This document shows positions 21,898-33,247 of a stretch of 49,935 bases of DNA, in pieces. The notes under the pieces were generated by a model. The model worked only from the letters and a program-made list of their open reading frames with translations, was not told the DNA's origin and did not search any database. Made by a program: the position numbers and the translations under genes. Every line of letters starts with the position of its first letter. The first letter of the stretch is position 1. This stretch comes from Duncaniella muris (GTDB lineage: Bacteria; Bacteroidota; Bacteroidia; Bacteroidales; Muribaculaceae): positions 1 through 49,935 of the forward strand of contig NZ_PUEC01000024.1 in the NCBI RefSeq assembly GCF_003024805.1. Reading direction: 5' to 3'.

Positions 21898-23007
21898 TCA
21901 ATCGAAGATCTTGTCCCAGTCTTTCCAGACGGCTTCATATCCGAGGCGGCGGATGTCGGCTGCCACAGCTTCAGGCGAGCGTGGGTCAGACACCTCGAAC
22001 TGTTCGAGTGCGTCAGGCGTAGAGCAGTATCCGCCCGGTTCGGTCTTGCTTCCGGCACTCATGGAGGTGACACCGAGTTTCATCATATTGGCGCGGAACT
22101 CCGGATCCTCGCGTGTAGAATAAGATATGTCCACATCGTGGTCGAATATGCGGAAAGCGAATGTCACCTGAGCCAGTTCGCGGTCGCTCATCACGACCTT
22201 GGGCTGATAGCCGCCCTCGGCCGGGCACATGCGCGGGAAATTCACGCTGTAGCGGGTGCGCCAGTAGTTTTTGCGCAGATAGCGCAGGTGGCGGGCAAGC
22301 ATTGCAAGGTCGGTGCGCCAGTCTTCGAGACCTATGAGCACTCCCATGCCGATTTTGTGGACCCCGGCCTGGCCCATGCGGTCGAAGCCGTTGACGCGCC
22401 AGTCGAAAATGGACTTCATGCCTTTGGGGTGATAGGTCTTGTAGTTGGCGGCATTGTAGGTCTCCTGGAAGCATACCACTCCGTTAAGACCGCTTTCAAC
22501 CAGCCGTGCGTAGCTTTCGGTCTTCATTGGCATCACTTCGATGGTGAGATTGTTGAAATAGGGACGCGCCACTTTCAGCACCTTTTCAAGATAGTCTACG
22601 CCGTTGAGGGCCGGGAATTCACCGGATACGATAAGCAGGTTTTCAAAAGGACCTAAACGGCGGATGGCCTCGCATTCGGCCTTGACCTGATCAAGGGTCA
22701 GTGTGACTCGTTCGAGGGGGTTGTTGTGGTTGAAGCCACAATACACACAGGAGTTAGTACACGCGTTAGACACATAGAGCGGAATGTAGAGAGAGATGGT
22801 TTTGCCGAAGCGCTCCATAGTGTAGCGGTGACTAAGCTGCGCCATCTGTTCGAGATAAGGCTCCGCGGCAGGCGAGATCAGTGCCATGAAGTCTTCGACA
22901 CTGAGATGCTGCTTGCGCAGGGCACTCTCGACGTGAGCTGCCGTGCGAGACTGGATGAAACGTGTGGTCTCATCCCAGTCATATTTTTTTAGTTCTTCTG
23001 AAAACAT
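21898..23007 (-). CDS. thiH: 2-iminoacetate synthase
   Basis: 369-residue radical SAM enzyme ThiH, which cleaves tyrosine to dehydroglycine and p-cresol for the thiazole ring of thiamine. The cluster-binding C83-x3-C87-x2-C90 (ACTNSCVYCGF) is intact, followed by SGEFPALNG and later MSAGSKTEPGGY at the C-terminal substrate region. In Bacteroides-type operons thiH normally follows thiC directly; here it is separated from thiC by about 5.1 kb of unrelated envelope genes. No -7 box is found in the 63 bases upstream, so it may depend on read-through. Confidence 0.96.
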   Translation of the reverse strand: MFSEELKKYDWDETTRFIQSRTAAHVESALRKQHLSVEDFMALISPAAEPYLEQMAQLSHRYTMERFGKTISLYIPLYVSNACTNSCVYCGFNHNNPLERVTLTLDQVKAECEAIRRLGPFENLLIVSGEFPALNGVDYLEKVLKVARPYFNNLTIEVMPMKTESYARLVESGLNGVVCFQETYNAANYKTYHPKGMKSIFDWRVNGFDRMGQAGVHKIGMGVLIGLEDWRTDLAMLARHLRYLRKNYWRTRYSVNFPRMCPAEGGYQPKVVMSDRELAQVTFAFRIFDHDVDISYSTREDPEFRANMMKLGVTSMSAGSKTEPGGYCSTPDALEQFEVSDPRSPEAVAADIRRLGYEAVWKDWDKIFD

Positions 23008-23035
23008 AAGAGTTTTGGTGTTTATGTTTTTGCAA

Positions 23036-23066
23036 GAGGCCGACGCGAGAGAGCAGCGTCAGCCTC
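23036..23066 (-). terminator. Hairpin between the four-barrel gene and thiH (weak or partial terminator)
   Basis: GAGGC-GACGC pairs with GCGTC-GCCTC, one C-A mismatch in the middle, with a nine-base loop. It begins five bases after the upstream stop codon. There is no good T run on the minus strand (TTGCAAAAAC follows), so it may be an RNA-stability or partial-termination element. Confidence 0.5.
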
Positions 23067-23070
23067 TCGG

Positions 23071-25347
23071 TTAAAATCGGTAGGTTATGCCAAGCGGTAG
23101 GCGACCGACTCCCACGAAGTGGTGGCCGTTGTGTTTTTCGCCATTGATTCGTGGCTGCCAGACGGTCACCATCGGAGTCAGTGTCAGACCGATGTTGTCG
23201 GTCAGGCGATAGCTGGCGCGCAGGCCGCCTTCAAGAGCCAGTGATGTCTTGGAGTTTCTGCATGATCCCCAGCCGAAGCCGATTCCGGCCATCGGGCTGA
23301 TTTCAAAGCGGCGGTCAGTCTCTCCGGTAAACACATGGGTGAGATTGAGCATATAGTCGAGGCTGAGGGTTTTGATCTCCTGATTGACGATCCGGTTGAA
23401 GGGCACACAGTCATAAGCGAATGAGAGTTGCAGTCCGGAGGTGCCGGTGAGCCACCCTCCGGCTGTGGCGTTGAAGCCCCAGGAGACTTTGCGGAACGAT
23501 GTGTTGGAGAAACTTTCGCTGTAGAGCATCGGGCCTCCCGCTATTCCGACATAGGGGCGGAATTCCGATAAATCAGTGGCAGAAGCATGGGCCGAACGTT
23601 CTTTCCTGGTGCGGCCTATTTTGTAGCTGAGGCCTGCGAGCAGACGTGCTTCAGGATTGAAACGGCGTGTGTAGTTCGGGATGGCAAGCAGCTGCACCTG
23701 AGGTTCGAGGATGATGTCGACTGCGGGTGACACACCGATGCGTCCGCGCAGTCCGGCTCTTGGTCCCCAGATAATGCTGTTGTGCTTATGGTTATAATGT
23801 GCGATACCGGCGTTCATGCCTACGAAGGCATCAAGATCGAAGCTACGTTCGCTGTCAAAGCCGCCGGCGAGTGTCGACAGGCTCAACAGATAGTCGGCCG
23901 AGAGCGAGAGGGAGCGGTAGTTGGCTCCGGTGTTATAATATTCGTATTCACCGTTGATTCTCCAGGCGCTCTCCGGTGTGTACCATTTGCCGAAGCCTAT
24001 GGCAACGGCGCAGTTGGGCTGCCATGAGCGCGAACGCATCAGCACTCCGCCGAGAAGATCGAAGAAGTAGCGGCGTGAGTAGAGGAATTCTCGATAGTCG
24101 AAATGCGACTTGTAGGCATCATATTCGGGTGATGTGTTGAAGCGGTAGACGAGGCCAACGTTAATTCCTGGCATCAGAGCGACGCGGTGGCTGGCACGAG
24201 CTATCTCACTGTCGAATGCCCTGACATTGGGTTCAAGATAGAGCCCTACAGAGGGTGAGACTTTCCATATGCCCTGAAGTCCGGCATGAAGCCCGGGGAA
24301 AAATTTCTTTCCTTCGCCTGAGAGGCAGGCTGCGCTTGCACCCAGCACCACGTTTGTCTCTATTTTGGCATCGGGGTTATAGCCTACGAATGCCGAATTA
24401 AGATTCCAAAGGAAGTCAAGATCGGCTATTGTGCTGTAGCGTTTTTTGAATCCTGCGGGCTGCCGGAGTTCCGCGCCGCCGATCGAAAGACGCAGGCCGG
24501 CGGGTGCGCTGAACCATTTTCCGATAGAGAGGGTTCCTGCGGCGCCTATGCGGTCACGCCATTCAGAGGTGTTTTCGCCGATTGACACAATTCCTCCTGA
24601 GAGACCAATGAAGAGATTGTCGCGGAAATGGTTGTTGGCAAACATGGAGTTGTCCACGCTGATGCCTTTTCCTCCGGCCATACGGTAGCCGAGACCGACC
24701 ATGACAGATGCGTTCCAGTCATATTTGTGCCATGTCTTGACATCGTCAAGCTTGTCGCCGTAGATGCCGAGACGAGGTTCCACATAGAGATAGGTGGATG
24801 ATGTGAGGTAGACTCTTGGCTGCAGGGCTATTCTGGCACCGGCCACACCCCAGAGACGGTGACCTTCGCGGTGGAGCGCCTGGCCTTCGATTCCCATGAT
24901 TCCGACCAGTTCGAAATGGCGTGAGGGGTTGTCGCCTCGAAGCAGGGATGAGAGGTTCATCATGTAGTCGAGTGAGAGGGCTGCGAAATACGGTTTGTAG
25001 TCTCTGAGTCCGTGGTGGCGTCCGCCGCTGATTCCGAGACGCCAGCCGTGGACGGGAGTTATCCAGTCTCCGATGGATATCCCCGCGCGGTAACCGTTTT
25101 CGGATGACGGACCTGACAGATGCGAGTTGGGGCGCATCCATTCGGGGCCGCCTTCCATAGAGATGAAAAGATGGTCGCCGAAGCGTTTGTGAGCGAATTT
25201 CTCGGCAGGGGCAGGGCGCTGGAGCACGTAGTCAAGCGCGTTCATAGTCGAGTCGATGGCCACCGGAGCATCCTGGGTGGCATAAGCGCCTAAGGGCAGA
25301 ATGCAGGAGCTTATAATAGTGCAGATGGTGCGTATATTGGTTTTCAT
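23071..25347 (-). CDS. Outer-membrane protein made of four tandem beta-barrel-like repeats
   Basis: 758 residues with a signal peptide (1-23, ending AYA). The rest divides into four homologous units of about 155-170 residues at roughly 56-225, 241-403, 425-578 and 596-758, joined by 15-21-residue linkers. Each unit has the same order of landmarks: a GG-turn first strand, a W..P/..GL/W strand, a strand ending LSLDYMLNLSS-like (LSLDYMMNLSSL, ADLDFLWNLNSA, LSADYLLSLSTL, LSLDYMLNLTHV), a central G-rich strand, a V/L-x-L-E/T-P strand (YVEPRLG, LEPNV, LEPQV, LTPMV), and an aromatic-ended last strand (YRM, YRF, YKIG, YRF). Each unit resembles a small eight-stranded outer-membrane barrel. The start overlaps the previous gene by ATGA. 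No family is recognised. Confidence 0.75.
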   Translation of the reverse strand: MKTNIRTICTIISSCILPLGAYATQDAPVAIDSTMNALDYVLQRPAPAEKFAHKRFGDHLFISMEGGPEWMRPNSHLSGPSSENGYRAGISIGDWITPVHGWRLGISGGRHHGLRDYKPYFAALSLDYMMNLSSLLRGDNPSRHFELVGIMGIEGQALHREGHRLWGVAGARIALQPRVYLTSSTYLYVEPRLGIYGDKLDDVKTWHKYDWNASVMVGLGYRMAGGKGISVDNSMFANNHFRDNLFIGLSGGIVSIGENTSEWRDRIGAAGTLSIGKWFSAPAGLRLSIGGAELRQPAGFKKRYSTIADLDFLWNLNSAFVGYNPDAKIETNVVLGASAACLSGEGKKFFPGLHAGLQGIWKVSPSVGLYLEPNVRAFDSEIARASHRVALMPGINVGLVYRFNTSPEYDAYKSHFDYREFLYSRRYFFDLLGGVLMRSRSWQPNCAVAIGFGKWYTPESAWRINGEYEYYNTGANYRSLSLSADYLLSLSTLAGGFDSERSFDLDAFVGMNAGIAHYNHKHNSIIWGPRAGLRGRIGVSPAVDIILEPQVQLLAIPNYTRRFNPEARLLAGLSYKIGRTRKERSAHASATDLSEFRPYVGIAGGPMLYSESFSNTSFRKVSWGFNATAGGWLTGTSGLQLSFAYDCVPFNRIVNQEIKTLSLDYMLNLTHVFTGETDRRFEISPMAGIGFGWGSCRNSKTSLALEGGLRASYRLTDNIGLTLTPMVTVWQPRINGEKHNGHHFVGVGRLPLGITYRF

Positions 25348-27401
25348 ATCTGTTCCTCCTCTTCTTCACGTTCTTCCATAAGGTCAATAAGGTCGCCGTC
25401 TATTTTGGCGATTTCCTTAAGTTCGGGCTTAAGGCGGAGAGCATTTTCAAGGTGGCTTACGGCTGCCATGTATTCATCCACACGGTTTGCCGCCACAGCT
25501 TTGAGGTATTCTTCTTCAGCTGAGCCTCCGAGTTTTGAAGCCTTGCGCCAGGCCTGATCATTGGCTTTGAGGGCAAGGAGTATCACCACTTCATTGATGG
25601 GTGATTCGGCGGCTACTTCCTGCATGGCTTCCTCATAGCGTCCGTTGAACACATCGGTGTAGACTTTGGCTTTGTGGAATTTCGGAGTGTCAGGCAGAAG
25701 CGATGCCAGCGAGTCGGCTTCGAGATAGTGGTGAGAGGCGAGGCAGGCTGCTATGTGGTTGAGCCGTGATTCGTCGGGGATTTTCTTTGTCTTGTTTCCG
25801 GGTTTGAGATAGGCGGCGAGTAGGTCGTAGTCCGCTTCGCCGCGTTCGAGCTTCATGGCCGAGAGGTCAGTGGCGGCGACAATGAAGTTCGGATGTGTCT
25901 CAAGCGCTTTTTTCAGATATTCCTCTTTCTCAGCCGGTGTCTTGGCCACATAGCGGTAAAGACGGAAGAATTCGAAACGTGAAAGCGATTTGGGATCTGT
26001 CTTGTAAACTTCGGCTATTTCATCGTCGGTCAGATAGCGGTATTGCGATGTCAGAAATTCATAGCTGACCTTACGCATGCGGGGAAGATATTTTTCGGGT
26101 ATCAGCGATGAATAGAAGGGCAGTTTGCGCACACGGACTGACTGCATGTCCATCTGTCCGGGGTAGCGGGCTATGATCTCGGCCACTGCATCGGCTTCGG
26201 TGTTGAGGCTGTCGGCACGGAGCATTTTGACGAGAGTTTCCCACGGTTCGACTGAGGCATCGCTTTTGACTTCCATGTATCGGCGGGTAGTGGGGGAGAG
26301 GTTGTCCATGATCAGGTCAAGAGCCGACTGCATGCGTCTTTGCGAGAGAGTCACGTTTTTCTCATAGTTGCCTTCAGGCGACGAAGTGGAGTAGATATAG
26401 AAGCTCTTGAGGGCGGCATCCGGGTCGTTTTCGATGCGCTGCAGCTGGCTCAGAAGCGAGTTCATTTCAGAGCGGTTGTTGCCCTGGTCCATGTCAAGGC
26501 GGGCGTCGTTGACGCGGAATGTCAGCATGACGTCGCCACGGGTGTCGCGCATCTGCATTTCAGGTGTCGGATAGAATGTGGTGTCGGTGACTTCGGTCCC
26601 GATCAGATTGTACTGGAAGAAGCGCATCGGGTTGACAGTGCCGCGGGCTATGGTTGTGGTGTCGCGATAGAATACGCGGTTGTAGTTTTCCATTGCCATG
26701 AGCATGTCGCAGTGGAAGTCGTGGTCAGGATTATCGAGATAGACGGAGTCGCTCCAGAAGATCATGTCGTCCTTGCGGCTTGAATGTTTCTGGACCTCTA
26801 CATAGGGTGTGAGCGGATCGTCATTGAGATCAAAGTCGAGCATTCGGTCCTGGGTGATGTTGTAGCGGCGTCCGTCAAACACGAGTGGCTTGAGATACCA
26901 CATTTTCGATGCCGAGACATTGTAGAGTGCCGGCTGGATTATCAATCGGGTGGAGGAGCCGAACAAGCGGTGAGGCACTTTTATGCGGGTCTTTATGTGG
27001 GCATAGTTACCTTTGATCTCGATGTCGGTAGGCTCCGGGGCCACGGTCTTGAGTTTGCCTTTGGCCTTGACCAGGACTTCATCAAGGGTTATCGAGGAAC
27101 GTGTCAGCATAACATCGATGGTCAGTCGTCCCTCTACGGGGACTTCGGTGTCTTCCATGCCGAGGATGGAGAACACGAGCTTGCCGTCGCCGTCAATGAT
27201 TACGAGATACTTGCCTTCTTCGTTGGTGCTTGTGAGGAGCTGTTCGTTTTCAGCATTGTAAATGCAGACTCCCTGCATCGGCTCGCCCTGTGAATTGGTA
27301 ACGATGCCGCGGACATTGATGTCACGTGCTGTAGCGGCGAGCGCTATCATGAGGATAGCCGCGATAGAGGAGAGGATGCGTTTGGCTGTTGTCATTTCCA
27401 T
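25344..27401 (-). CDS. Exported protein with carboxypeptidase-regulatory-like, OmpA-like and TPR-like regions
   Basis: 685 residues. A signal peptide (1-25, ending ATA) is followed by a carboxypeptidase-regulatory-like beta-sandwich (about 27-115: VRGIVTNSQGEPMQGV, EGKYLV, LDEVLVKA). The middle is mixed; at about 335-365 the segment SSPEGNYEKNVTLSQRRMQ resembles the NxxLSxxRA core of OmpA-type peptidoglycan-binding domains, though the usual Asp is missing. The C-terminal ~200 residues are helical repeats of TPR character (EEYLKKALETHPNF, HLENALRLKPEL), ending in an acidic tail. It may bridge cell wall and outer membrane and scaffold the two neighbouring barrel proteins. It starts 12 bases after the DUF3575 gene and overlaps the next gene by four bases. 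Confidence 0.75.
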   Translation of the reverse strand: MEMTTAKRILSSIAAILMIALAATARDINVRGIVTNSQGEPMQGVCIYNAENEQLLTSTNEEGKYLVIIDGDGKLVFSILGMEDTEVPVEGRLTIDVMLTRSSITLDEVLVKAKGKLKTVAPEPTDIEIKGNYAHIKTRIKVPHRLFGSSTRLIIQPALYNVSASKMWYLKPLVFDGRRYNITQDRMLDFDLNDDPLTPYVEVQKHSSRKDDMIFWSDSVYLDNPDHDFHCDMLMAMENYNRVFYRDTTTIARGTVNPMRFFQYNLIGTEVTDTTFYPTPEMQMRDTRGDVMLTFRVNDARLDMDQGNNRSEMNSLLSQLQRIENDPDAALKSFYIYSTSSPEGNYEKNVTLSQRRMQSALDLIMDNLSPTTRRYMEVKSDASVEPWETLVKMLRADSLNTEADAVAEIIARYPGQMDMQSVRVRKLPFYSSLIPEKYLPRMRKVSYEFLTSQYRYLTDDEIAEVYKTDPKSLSRFEFFRLYRYVAKTPAEKEEYLKKALETHPNFIVAATDLSAMKLERGEADYDLLAAYLKPGNKTKKIPDESRLNHIAACLASHHYLEADSLASLLPDTPKFHKAKVYTDVFNGRYEEAMQEVAAESPINEVVILLALKANDQAWRKASKLGGSAEEEYLKAVAANRVDEYMAAVSHLENALRLKPELKEIAKIDGDLIDLMEEREEEEEQI

Positions 27402-27413
27402 TTCTTTCGCGGA

Positions 27414-27971
27414 TTATTTAAAAATGTAAGAGAATGAAATTCCGGTTCCGACAGGCACAGGCACCCACCGGCTCATGTTTGTGGTGGCAGGCTGGCCGTT
27501 CTGGTAGAGATAGTTGTAGCCCCATACACGTGCCATTCCAAGTCCAAGAGTGAATTCTACGTTCCAGTGTCGGTTGAGCACGAGGGCATAGCCGTAGGTC
27601 AGACCGGCGGCTACTCCGTTGCCTTTGTAGCAGTGTTCGCGCAGGCGCAGGTTGAAGACTCCGCCGCTGAATGCTACTCCCATGAAGTGGCGGGCCATCG
27701 GGCGGTTGAACCAGTAGCGCAGCGACGGTTCGATGCGCAGGTTTTTGAGCTTGATATCTGAGCCGTAGACAGTCTTGTCGAGAGGATTTCCGGCAACGCC
27801 GATCTCGAAAGTGACTCTGCGTGACAGACGGGTGTCAAGGGTGAGGTTGGGCGACATAAGCACCCAGTCAAGCGTGTTGGTCTTCAACGCGACCCTCTGC
27901 GCTTTGGCCGGGACATAGCATAGTGTGAAAGAGAGGATGGAGAGGAGCCAAAGAAAAAGCCTATTGGTCAT
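27414..27971 (-). CDS. DUF3575-family outer-membrane barrel protein
   Basis: 185 residues from the ATG at 27971 (an upstream ATG at 28046 would add 25 residues without sense as a leader). Signal peptide 1-24 ends PAKA. The mature part begins QRVALKTNTLDWVLMSPNLTLD, the hallmark opening of DUF3575 proteins (shown here up to its full 22-residue span only in part: ALKTNTLDW), then beta strands with RIEPSLRYWF and GVAAGLTYGYALVL, and an aromatic last strand (FSYIFK). DUF3575 genes often stand beside fimbrial or envelope clusters in Bacteroidales; no fimbrillin is seen here. It is the first gene of the three-gene module. Confidence 0.8.
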   Translation of the reverse strand: MTNRLFLWLLSILSFTLCYVPAKAQRVALKTNTLDWVLMSPNLTLDTRLSRRVTFEIGVAGNPLDKTVYGSDIKLKNLRIEPSLRYWFNRPMARHFMGVAFSGGVFNLRLREHCYKGNGVAAGLTYGYALVLNRHWNVEFTLGLGMARVWGYNYLYQNGQPATTNMSRWVPVPVGTGISFSYIFK

Positions 27972-28060
27972 CGGTGAAAATTGTAAAAATAGTTGAACGG
28001 TTAAGTTATAGTGTGTGATTATGTCATCAGAAGACATGAAAAGCAATAACCACTGATAGA

Positions 28061-28100
28061 CGCAAGAGGGTGCTACAATCGCAGTAGGGTCCCTCTTGCG
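28061..28100 (-). terminator. Strong hairpin after thiC
   Basis: CGCAAGAGGG (28061-28070) pairs perfectly with CCCTCTTGCG (28091-28100), extended inwards by CTAC/GTAG. It lies 33 bases after the thiC stop and 90 bases before the DUF3575 start. There is no real T run on either strand, so termination may be partial. It marks the boundary between the thiamine operon and the envelope module. Confidence 0.55.
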
Positions 28101-28132
28101 GTTATATACGGTGGCATCAAGTGATGAATATT

Positions 28133-30639
<2,507 letters not shown>

Positions 30640-30686
30640 ATATAAGCTTGTGTGATGATTTTGTCTGGAAGTGGTGTGGCTGATGA

Positions 30687-31322
30687 TTACCGGCGCTTTT
30701 CAAATGCTTCCTGAAGAGCGCCGAGCACCTTGCGGGTGTAGTCCACCGGGTCATCGGCGTTGATGATTGATCCGCTCATGGCTACTCCGTTGACTCCTGT
30801 GGCCATGACTGCCGGTATGTCTTCAAGGGTGATTCCGCCGATAGCCACGATGGGGAGCAGGATGTCAGCGGCGCGGACTTCACGGACTATATCCGTGTAG
30901 CCGTCAAGGCCGATTACCGGCGAGAGGCGGGCTTTGGTGGTGGTGTAGCGGAAGGGGCCGAGGCCTACATAGTCCACGTCCCAGCCGCGGAGCCGGGTGA
31001 TGTCAGCGGCGGTGTTGGCTGTGCATCCGATGATGGCTTCCGCTCCCATGTTCTCACGTGCGACGAGCGGATTCATGTCATCTTTGCCGAGGTGCACGCC
31101 GTGGACCGACATCTCTATGGCAAGTTCTACGCGGTCGTCGAACACGAGGAAGGCTTCGTTTTCCTTGCAGAGCGGGATGATTTCAAGAGCCGTCTGCCGG
31201 AATTCTTCATCAGTGGCATCCTTAAGGCGGAGCTGTATCCATTTGCAGCCTCCTTCAAGGACCATCTGGACTTCTTCCGCAATCGTGTAGCGCTCGGATG
31301 GATGGGTTATGAACTGGAGCAT
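30687..31322 (-). CDS. thiE: Thiamine phosphate synthase
   Basis: 211-residue TIM-barrel ThiE that couples the pyrimidine and thiazole moieties into thiamine phosphate. Marks are [58 protein letters not shown] and [13 protein letters not shown]. The ATG at 31322, five bases after the upstream gene's stop, gives a normal N-terminus ([12 protein letters not shown]); a longer frame from 31388 would overlap that gene by 61 bases and is not used. Catalytic Lys/Asp positions appear intact, unlike the upstream TenI-like copy. Confidence 0.93.
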
Positions 31323-31327
31323 AAGAG

Positions 31328-31909
31328 TCAGATTAGTTTTATGGTTTGTTCCGCAAACTGCCTTACAGTTGTGGCCGGGCTGTTCCACGGAATGGCTCCA
31401 AGCATGGCGAAGCCATTGAAGTTATAACGTTTGAGATATGGAATTCGTTCAGGAGTAACGCCTCCGAGTGCGATGACCGGAGTCGGGATATCGTCAAGAG
31501 CGGAGAGGGTCTCGCCGGTGAATGCTGAGTGATAGCCTTGTTTGGAGATGCTGTCAAAAATGGGGCTGAGGGTGGCATAGGCCAGCCCTGTGCATTTTCT
31601 GAGTTCATCGATCGAGTGGCATGAACGGCTCAAGGCTCCTCTGTAGAGGGCCGGTGCGTCCGGACAGCGGTGGTTCAGATGCAGGCCTCCGAGATTGAAA
31701 TCGTTGCAGAGGTCGAAGTGGCCGTGGAGCACGAGGCAGCTGTGGAAAGCCTGGGGTATTGCTTCGATGAGTTTTCTGACATCGGTGCGTGACGCTCCGG
31801 GATGGCGGAGGTGTACTCTGTGCCATCCGGCATCAAGAAGCGCGCATACCGCTGCTGCTTCATGCCGCTCGTTTTCGAGGCGTTCCGGTGTAATGGCTAT
31901 CGCTGTCAT
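31328..31909 (-). CDS. ThiE/TenI-like protein
   Basis: 193-residue second member of the thiamine phosphate synthase fold. VHLRHPG, GGLHLNHRCPD and VIALGGVTPERIPYL correspond to ThiE strands, but several ThiE active-site segments are altered: the GHS-type segment reads LSRSCHSIDEL and the diphosphate loop is LSPIFDSISKQGY. This is the pattern of TenI or of the accessory ThiE of Bacteroidota thi operons, so an aromatase-like or regulatory role is as likely as synthase activity. It lies between thiS (18 bases) and thiE (5 bases). Confidence 0.8.
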   Translation of the reverse strand: MTAIAITPERLENERHEAAAVCALLDAGWHRVHLRHPGASRTDVRKLIEAIPQAFHSCLVLHGHFDLCNDFNLGGLHLNHRCPDAPALYRGALSRSCHSIDELRKCTGLAYATLSPIFDSISKQGYHSAFTGETLSALDDIPTPVIALGGVTPERIPYLKRYNFNGFAMLGAIPWNSPATTVRQFAEQTIKLI

Positions 31910-31927
31910 CGCGGAGAGATTTATGGC

Positions 31928-32128
31928 TTAGCCTCCGTAGAATGCCTTGATGATGACAATGTCATCTCCGTCGGCAAGTTTATGAGACGGACGCAGCACG
32001 GCGGGTATTACTTTTCCGTTGACGGCTGTGGCGATTCCCTGTGGTTTTATTTCTTTGGCGTCAAGAGCATCTTGCAGAGAGGCGCCGTCAGAGAGGGTTA
32101 TGTCTACTTGGTTGACTTTTACGGTCAT
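31928..32128 (-). CDS. thiS: Sulfur carrier protein ThiS
   Basis: 66-residue ubiquitin-fold protein ending in the diagnostic Gly-Gly (IIKAFYGG). The C-terminal glycine is adenylated and turned into a thiocarboxylate that donates sulfur to ThiG. It is the second gene of the operon, 37 bases after thiD. The adenylating enzyme ThiF, often in the same operon, is not in this window. Confidence 0.93.
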   Translation of the reverse strand: MTVKVNQVDITLSDGASLQDALDAKEIKPQGIATAVNGKVIPAVLRPSHKLADGDDIVIIKAFYGG

Positions 32129-32165
32129 GGTTGTTGGTTTTATCTGTTGAAATAGCCTGCCGGGA

Positions 32166-32990
32166 TCAGCGGCTTTTCGGATTGAAATTTTTTAATCGTC
32201 TGGGTGAGAAGAAGTGGTTCACGGGTCCGTGGCCGTGGCCTGTGGAGATCCATGCACCGGCTTCAAGGGCGCGTGTCACGTAGAGTTTTGCCATTCTGAC
32301 GGCTTCGGTCAGGGAGTAGCCGAGTGCGAGATAAGAGGCTATGGCCGATGAGAGGGTGCACCCGGTTCCGTGGGAGTTTTTTGTGTCGACAGCATCGGCT
32401 TTGAGTTCGATGGTTTCTCCGGTGGCGCCGAGATACAGTGTGTCGGTTTTGAAATCAGTATTGTCAGAGTCGCCGCCTTTGATCAGAATGTTCTTGCAGC
32501 CAAATTTCCGCAATGCTTCGATCTGCTCTGCGGTGTCTAAAGATCCGGCCAGTTTTTCGGTTTCCATCCGGTTGGGAGTAACAAGCGTGGCCAAAGGGAA
32601 AATGCGGCTGACAAGGATTTCGATGGCATCCTCTTCAAGGAGCATTGATCCGGAGGTCGAGACCATTACCGGATCGATAATGAGATTTTCGGGACGATAG
32701 TGTTCGAGACGATCGGCTACAGCCGCGGCGACTTCTGCATTGCAGAGCATCCCGATCTTGACGGCCAGAGGCGGAATGTCGGTCATGACCATGTCGATCT
32801 GATCGGTCACTACTCCCGGCGACACTGGCATGATCGACCGCACCCCGGTGGTGTTCTGGGCTGTGATAGAGGTTATGGCCGACATGGCATAACAGCCGAT
32901 GGCCGACATTGTCTTGATGTCAGCCTGGATGCCGGCGCCACCCGATGAATCGGACCCGGCGATTGTGAGAGTGGGATAGTAAGTTCTCAT
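32166..32990 (-). CDS. thiD: Hydroxymethylpyrimidine/phosphomethylpyrimidine kinase
   Basis: 274-residue ribokinase-fold kinase ThiD. The substrate loop TIAGSDSSGGAGIQADIKT at the N-terminus, VKIGMLCN, IIDPVMVSTSG and the C-terminal DTKNSHGTGCTLSSAIA (anion hole and catalytic Asp/Gly/Cys region) are all present. It phosphorylates the pyrimidine product of ThiC twice. It is the first gene downstream of the TPP riboswitch, about 110 bases after it. Confidence 0.96.
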   Translation of the reverse strand: MRTYYPTLTIAGSDSSGGAGIQADIKTMSAIGCYAMSAITSITAQNTTGVRSIMPVSPGVVTDQIDMVMTDIPPLAVKIGMLCNAEVAAAVADRLEHYRPENLIIDPVMVSTSGSMLLEEDAIEILVSRIFPLATLVTPNRMETEKLAGSLDTAEQIEALRKFGCKNILIKGGDSDNTDFKTDTLYLGATGETIELKADAVDTKNSHGTGCTLSSAIASYLALGYSLTEAVRMAKLYVTRALEAGAWISTGHGHGPVNHFFSPRRLKNFNPKSR

Positions 32991-33104
32991 CGCGCTTTGT
33001 TATTATTAAAACTCCTGCTTTATGCCATAGTGGGCATAAGGCCAGACGATACTCTTCGAAGTCCGGCTGACGGCAGGCGGTCAGACGTCGGACTGACAAA
33101 GCGG

Positions 33105-33214
33105 CTGAGGCAAAGTCAAGTGCAATCCCTTCGGCGGTACTAACCGCATCAGGTTCAGAGGGTATCATCTCAGCGGCAATCACAGGAGGGTGAATGCCGC
33201 ACCCCTTTGTCGGC
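33105..33214 (-). ncRNA. TPP riboswitch (Thi-box)
   Basis: On the minus strand the conserved thi-box elements appear in order: GGGGTGC, then CTGAGAT-GATACCC, then GAACCTGATGCGGTTAGTACC, and AAGGGATTGCA closing. These form the pyrimidine-sensing and diphosphate-sensing helices of the TPP aptamer. The promoter immediately upstream puts the transcript start at its 5' edge. It should repress thiD and the downstream genes when thiamine diphosphate is plentiful. Exact ends are estimated. Confidence 0.95.
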
Positions 33215-33215
33215 G

Positions 33216-33247
33216 CAAAGGTAGAGTTTTATTCGTGATTTTCCAAA
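33216..33247 (-). promoter_or_regulatory. Promoter of the thiamine operon
   Basis: On the minus strand, TTTG (33244-33247) and TACCTTTG (33216-33223) form perfect -33 and -7 boxes with a 20-base spacer. Transcription would start within a few bases of the riboswitch's first helix. Confidence 0.85.

Follow-up and report, generated by a model that had tools for sequence, protein, structure and literature searches.

A string of four predicted outer-membrane barrels and its conserved partner genes in Duncaniella muris

The stretch of DNA analysed here, called the window below, comprises 49,935 nucleotides of Duncaniella muris (assembly GCF_003024805.1, contig NZ_PUEC01000024.1, positions 1 to 49,935). 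On its minus strand lies a gene for a protein of 758 residues, placed there already by the original prediction, which was made from the letters alone and read the product as four tandem outer-membrane barrel units on one polypeptide. Computation supports four tandem homologous eight-stranded barrels, modelled as separate units on one chain, and we infer that these are inserted in the outer membrane. The gene and its parts are as follows.

23071..25347, minus strand: gene of the tandem-barrel protein, 758 residues
25276..25347, minus strand: N-terminal signal-peptide-like segment, residues about 1-24, its end set by eye; helix at residues 2-21 in the structural model
25219..25242, minus strand: conserved NALDYVLQ motif, residues 36-43, N-terminal to barrel 1
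24679..25182, minus strand: barrel unit 1, residues 56-223, eight predicted strands
24628..24678, minus strand: linker between units 1 and 2
24139..24627, minus strand: barrel unit 2, residues 241-403, eight predicted strands, C-terminal Phe
24079..24138, minus strand: linker between units 2 and 3
23617..24078, minus strand: barrel unit 3, residues 424-577, eight predicted strands
23563..23616, minus strand: linker between units 3 and 4
23074..23562, minus strand: barrel unit 4, residues 596-758, eight predicted strands of which the last two are broken in the model, C-terminal Phe

The four blocks of the original prediction are borne out, with nearly identical borders. When the units are aligned with each other all six pairs score above 500 of 500 shuffles (Smith-Waterman z 10.6 to 22.3), at pairwise identities of 21-29%. 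A unit profile, iterated over sequences that include the 758-residue protein itself, finds exactly four domains in it with i-Evalues of 2e-46 to 2e-57, and the linkers between the profile matches measure 20, 22 and 20 residues.

The AlphaFold2 model predicts eight strands in each of the four units; a table of alternating-residue peaks, which is a cruder count, gives 8, 10, 9 and 8 peaks for units 1-4. Each unit aligns to solved eight-stranded outer-membrane barrels, namely OmpA, NspA, CarO and Ail. The model does not show a soluble beta-helix or propeller. The whole protein had no match in Pfam or NCBIfam up to E 1 and none in a PDB sequence search up to E 10, and a profile of 50 units reached a best, non-significant E of 0.32 against the PDB. 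The Pfam family OMP_b-brl was matched by 3 of 50 units, at best with 1.8e-5 and without the per-unit family cut-off.

The barrel units have homologues in OmpA-family proteins of the Bacteroidales. The protein search matches members of about 400 residues down to E 4.8e-10, and PF00691 was present in all four that were scanned; they match the unit profile as well, but that profile was iterated over them. These single-unit relatives consist of a barrel homologous to the units described here followed by an OmpA domain on the same chain, whereas in the trio of genes described below the barrels are multiplied and an OmpA-like domain is encoded by a neighbouring gene. The 758-residue protein itself has no Pfam match to PF00691, and its chain ends with unit 4.

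The genome of the window holds the full-length protein once, with three more weak matches, two of which (L002 and L003) are single-unit OmpA-type proteins. At family level the protein is present in 29 of 397 genomes at E 1e-30, and at order level 28 of 393 genomes match at E 1e-20, 19 with tandem and 9 with single-unit proteins. In a sample of 345 genomes from across the phylum, which included a few of this order, the genome of the window was the sole match at E 1e-20. The profile searches scored only two or three candidates per genome and may have passed over second copies. Copy number varies among homologues within the order: the 45 distinct complete tandem proteins carry 2 (n=1), 3 (10), 4 (20), 5 (8), 6 (4) or 8 (2) units, a set that leaves out identical proteins, the 96% copies L005 and L034, proteins left open by a contig end, and L066. 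Proteins with 8 units were found in two genomes of a single genus, and those with 6 units in four genomes of a single genus. Tandem forms in named isolates include those of Coprobacter secundus 177 (5 units) and Phocaeicola faecicola AGMB03916 (3 units).

Some individual records deserve mention. In L066, a 4-unit gene of a draft genome, an in-frame TAA interrupts the reading frame and good unit matches are present in both pieces. The 3-unit protein of L090 and L112 reaches a contig end, so that its unit number is a lower bound, and its terminal residues are presumably adapter-like. The titles of L036 (Lachnoclostridium) and L042 (Prevotella) look wrong, since the same protein is found in genomes G003 and G141 of the window's family.

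The original prediction had offered two arrangements, beads on a string or one fused pore of about 32 strands. The fused pore can hardly be credited. All units do share one chain with short linkers, but each has eight predicted strands and aligns singly to eight-stranded barrels, homologous single units occur in OmpA-family proteins, and homologues with 2, 3, 5, 6 and 8 units would require pores of very different sizes. Whole units have been added and dropped within the family, which favours beads on a string over one pore of about 32 strands. In a tree of 137 units, the absence of unit 4 from 3-unit proteins of the window's family traces to about four separate lineages. Downstream of eight 3-unit genes, up to 1500 bases held no remains of a unit. 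Another tree, of 110 units, places most first units in one cluster (96/89), the exceptions being those of the 2-unit form, the 8-unit forms and two 3-unit forms; a further cluster unites the last units of forms with 4, 5 or 6 units (100/99). For the 8-unit forms it pairs unit 4 with unit 6 (99/96) and unit 5 with unit 7 (100/96) as sisters, the pattern that duplication of a two-barrel cassette would leave. The roots of the trees are midpoints and serve for drawing only.

The barrel assembly machinery (BAM) is commonly held to recognise a barrel by a signal in its last strand. An aromatic residue had been proposed at the end of each unit, as a separate signal for BAM. The units end in GLGYRM, GLVYRF, GLSYKI and GITYRF, with Tyr as third-last residue in all four; the proposal thus holds for units 2 and 4 (Phe) but not for unit 1 (Met) or unit 3 (Ile). 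A full aromatic-ended signal on every unit finds no support in the 45 tandem proteins either. An aromatic residue closes the last strand in 41 of the 45 last units (40 of 44 without L090) against 17 of the 147 internal units, where Leu, Ile or Met stands in 95 and the third-last Tyr is kept in 136. If related sequences are treated as independent, the difference has a Fisher p of 1e-23. Treated in the same way, unit 3 ends in an aromatic residue in 4 of 6 proteins when it is the last unit and in 2 of 20 when it is internal (p 0.013), although about four losses underlie this comparison and two show the effect. In single OmpA-type proteins, where the barrel likewise does not close the chain, 27 of 34 barrels have Phe. 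Because the aromatic end is kept on the last barrel and is mostly absent on internal ones, this correlation suggests a main BAM recognition end on the last barrel, one per chain. Internal signals are also reported to help (PMC10945584).

The barrel gene is the third of a conserved trio, after a gene for a DUF3575 single barrel and one for a protein with a SusC-type N-terminal extension (NTE), an OmpA-like domain and TPR repeats. In the window the two partners are placed as follows.

25344..27401, minus strand: operon partner of 685 residues with an NTE like that of SusC, an unassigned beta domain, an OmpA-like domain and a TPR solenoid
27414..28046, minus strand: operon partner, DUF3575 protein (PF12099, E 1.2e-42), with a likelier start at an ATG near 27971

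The stop of the 685-residue partner overlaps the start of the barrel gene by 4 bases. The unit profile met the DUF3575 neighbour at E 0.022, which is not a clear match, and no common origin is claimed. The loci of 3-unit proteins L045 (1789-2403) and L046 (1622-2275 and 2425-3144) have separate single-unit barrel proteins upstream of the trio, and L046 has an additional, second DUF3575 protein.

The whole trio lies inside a thiamine operon (21898-33216, all minus strand), with thiD, thiE and thiC upstream and thiH downstream, headed by a thiamine pyrophosphate (TPP) riboswitch at 33109-33216 on the minus strand. A sigma-70 scan of 22900-28300, a method ill suited to this phylum, gave no promoter or terminator above chance. 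Loci in which thiH comes after the barrel gene belong to two genera; seven other flanked loci lack this arrangement. A functional link with thiamine was rejected, as the seven flanked loci L039 and L041-L046 have no thi neighbours.

Relatives of both upstream partner genes are held by the DUF3575/DUF3868 fimbrial loci of Bacteroidales. The same genome contains a type V fimbrial locus (L079, 2671-12894) in which genes for DUF3575, DUF3868/OmpA-like/TPR, Fimbrillin_C, Mfa2 and DUF4906 proteins stand in a row, and the TPR partner and the DUF3575 protein match proteins of that locus with E 2e-12 (BLASTP) and 3e-22. The trio could therefore be viewed as a fimbria-like assembly platform related to the type V (Mfa/Fim) locus, with the barrels helping to export or anchor a surface polymer. 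We consider this unlikely. The trio matched no fimbrial model in Pfam, and the 685-residue partner had no Pfam match to DUF3868. Eight neighbours of the trio, scanned with NCBIfam at E 1e-10, likewise gave no fimbrial match and no fimbrillin or Mfa2 gene; they were thiH, thiC, thiE, thiD, gmd, a Nudix/TenI-type match and two genes without a match. The trio thus differs from the fimbrial loci in that no fimbrial subunit gene was found beside it and its third gene encodes a tandem-barrel protein, and the barrels are homologous to those of OmpA type.

The distribution of conserved residues bears on where a partner might bind. The NALDYVLQ motif occurs in its strict form in 33 of the 45 tandem proteins, and in a relaxed form, widened after inspection of the 12 misses, in all 45, with no further match in the 34,021 residues of these proteins. 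The mean column identity over ten proteins is 0.82 for this N-terminal motif, 0.43 for strands, 0.45 for periplasmic turns (0.49 in turn 2), 0.24 for extracellular loops and 0.23 for linkers; turns and loops differ with p 2e-11 when columns are treated as independent. If the topology is the usual one the conserved parts are on the periplasmic side, and on this ground we favour putative docking to the upstream partner over a role at the surface. Near the N-terminus of the DUF3575 neighbour stands NTLDWVL, which is similar to NALDYVL of the barrel string and may be a shared docking element. A surface adhesin or an array of variable antigens is very improbable: the extracellular loops are indeed among the least conserved parts, as such a role would have it, but they are short, at 2 to 14 residues each in the 758-residue protein, and conservation is highest in the N-terminal motif, periplasmic under the usual topology.

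Comparison with described systems qualifies the original statement that no described family with this layout was recognised. No family model matched the protein, as stated above, but multi-barrel outer-membrane proteins are a described class (Solan et al. 2021 PNAS, as cited in PMC8592465 and PMC11494523). More than one outer-membrane barrel per chain, here by prediction, is the shared feature. The series of 2 to 8 units, the conserved trio and the aromatic residue on the last unit are results of the present analysis, and the set of Solan et al. 2021 may already include the family. GfcD and YjbH also have two predicted membrane barrels on one chain. These barrels have 12 and 13 predicted strands and flank a periplasmic domain, unlike the homologous eight-stranded units with linkers of about 20 residues in the 758-residue protein. 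GfcD is reported to yield two stable fragments of 30 kDa on limited proteolysis (PMC8592465).

It is improbable, if less so than an adhesin, that the barrels are independent small channels or lipid-handling barrels of the GfcD kind with no tether role. Eight strands per unit is a size that rarely gives open pores, and the co-occurring OmpA-like/TPR partner would stay unexplained. The attraction of the idea is that GfcD has been proposed to export a lipid-anchored polysaccharide (PMC11494523).

In view of the above, we propose that the 758-residue protein is exported by means of its signal peptide, after which four separate eight-stranded barrels of OmpA type would fold next to one another in the outer membrane, with periplasmic linkers of about 20 residues between them. 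The barrel string would work together with the DUF3575 protein and the periplasmic SusC-type NTE/OmpA-like/TPR protein encoded just upstream, and docking to the TPR partner could be provided by the NALDYxLQ motif together with the conserved turn that follows strand 4 in each barrel. The trio would then amount to a distributed OmpA, with many barrels on one chain and the periplasmic tether on another, and might serve as a multi-point anchor or assembly platform in the outer membrane. The last barrel would carry the main BAM recognition end. Taken as a whole, we regard this account as more likely than not.

Several observations pull the other way. The pTM of the AlphaFold2 model (its predicted template-modelling score) is 0.34 and the mean pLDDT (the per-residue confidence) is 69.5, so that the mutual arrangement of the barrels is not fixed by the model, and two strands of unit 4 are broken in it. 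Barrel alignments were few for units 1 and 2, and some of the aligned structures are soluble barrels. Periplasmic turn 3 is conserved at 0.33 only, and loops were assigned to the outside on the assumption that the termini are periplasmic, as is usual. In the tree, the last-unit group does not take in the last units of the 8-unit forms or of several 3-unit forms. The OmpA-like domain of the partner has Ser341, invariant in 9 of 9 aligned rows, at the position of the peptidoglycan-binding Asp of OmpA proteins, whose binders of this kind use an Asp and an Arg to hold mDAP; since Ser replaces Asp, peptidoglycan binding by the 685-residue partner is doubtful.

A more far-reaching version is tentative, and we hold it to be rather less probable than the account above. 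It describes a modular outer-membrane string system in which a chain holds 2 to 8 barrels, or as many as about 64 strands. Amplification would affect the internal barrels, and in the 4- to 6-unit forms the first and the last barrel would each be distinct. Assembly of the whole chain would be licensed by one main BAM end signal, located on the last barrel, and a dedicated OmpA-like/TPR partner in the periplasm would make of the string a multi-point envelope anchor.

The literature searched gave no description of a function for this three-gene envelope module of gut Bacteroidales, to which, as a conserved module, the tandem-barrel family points. Relatives with two to eight barrels provide a natural test of how cells build barrel strings, and with the aromatic residue mainly on the last barrel, it becomes testable whether one BAM signal is needed per barrel or per chain.
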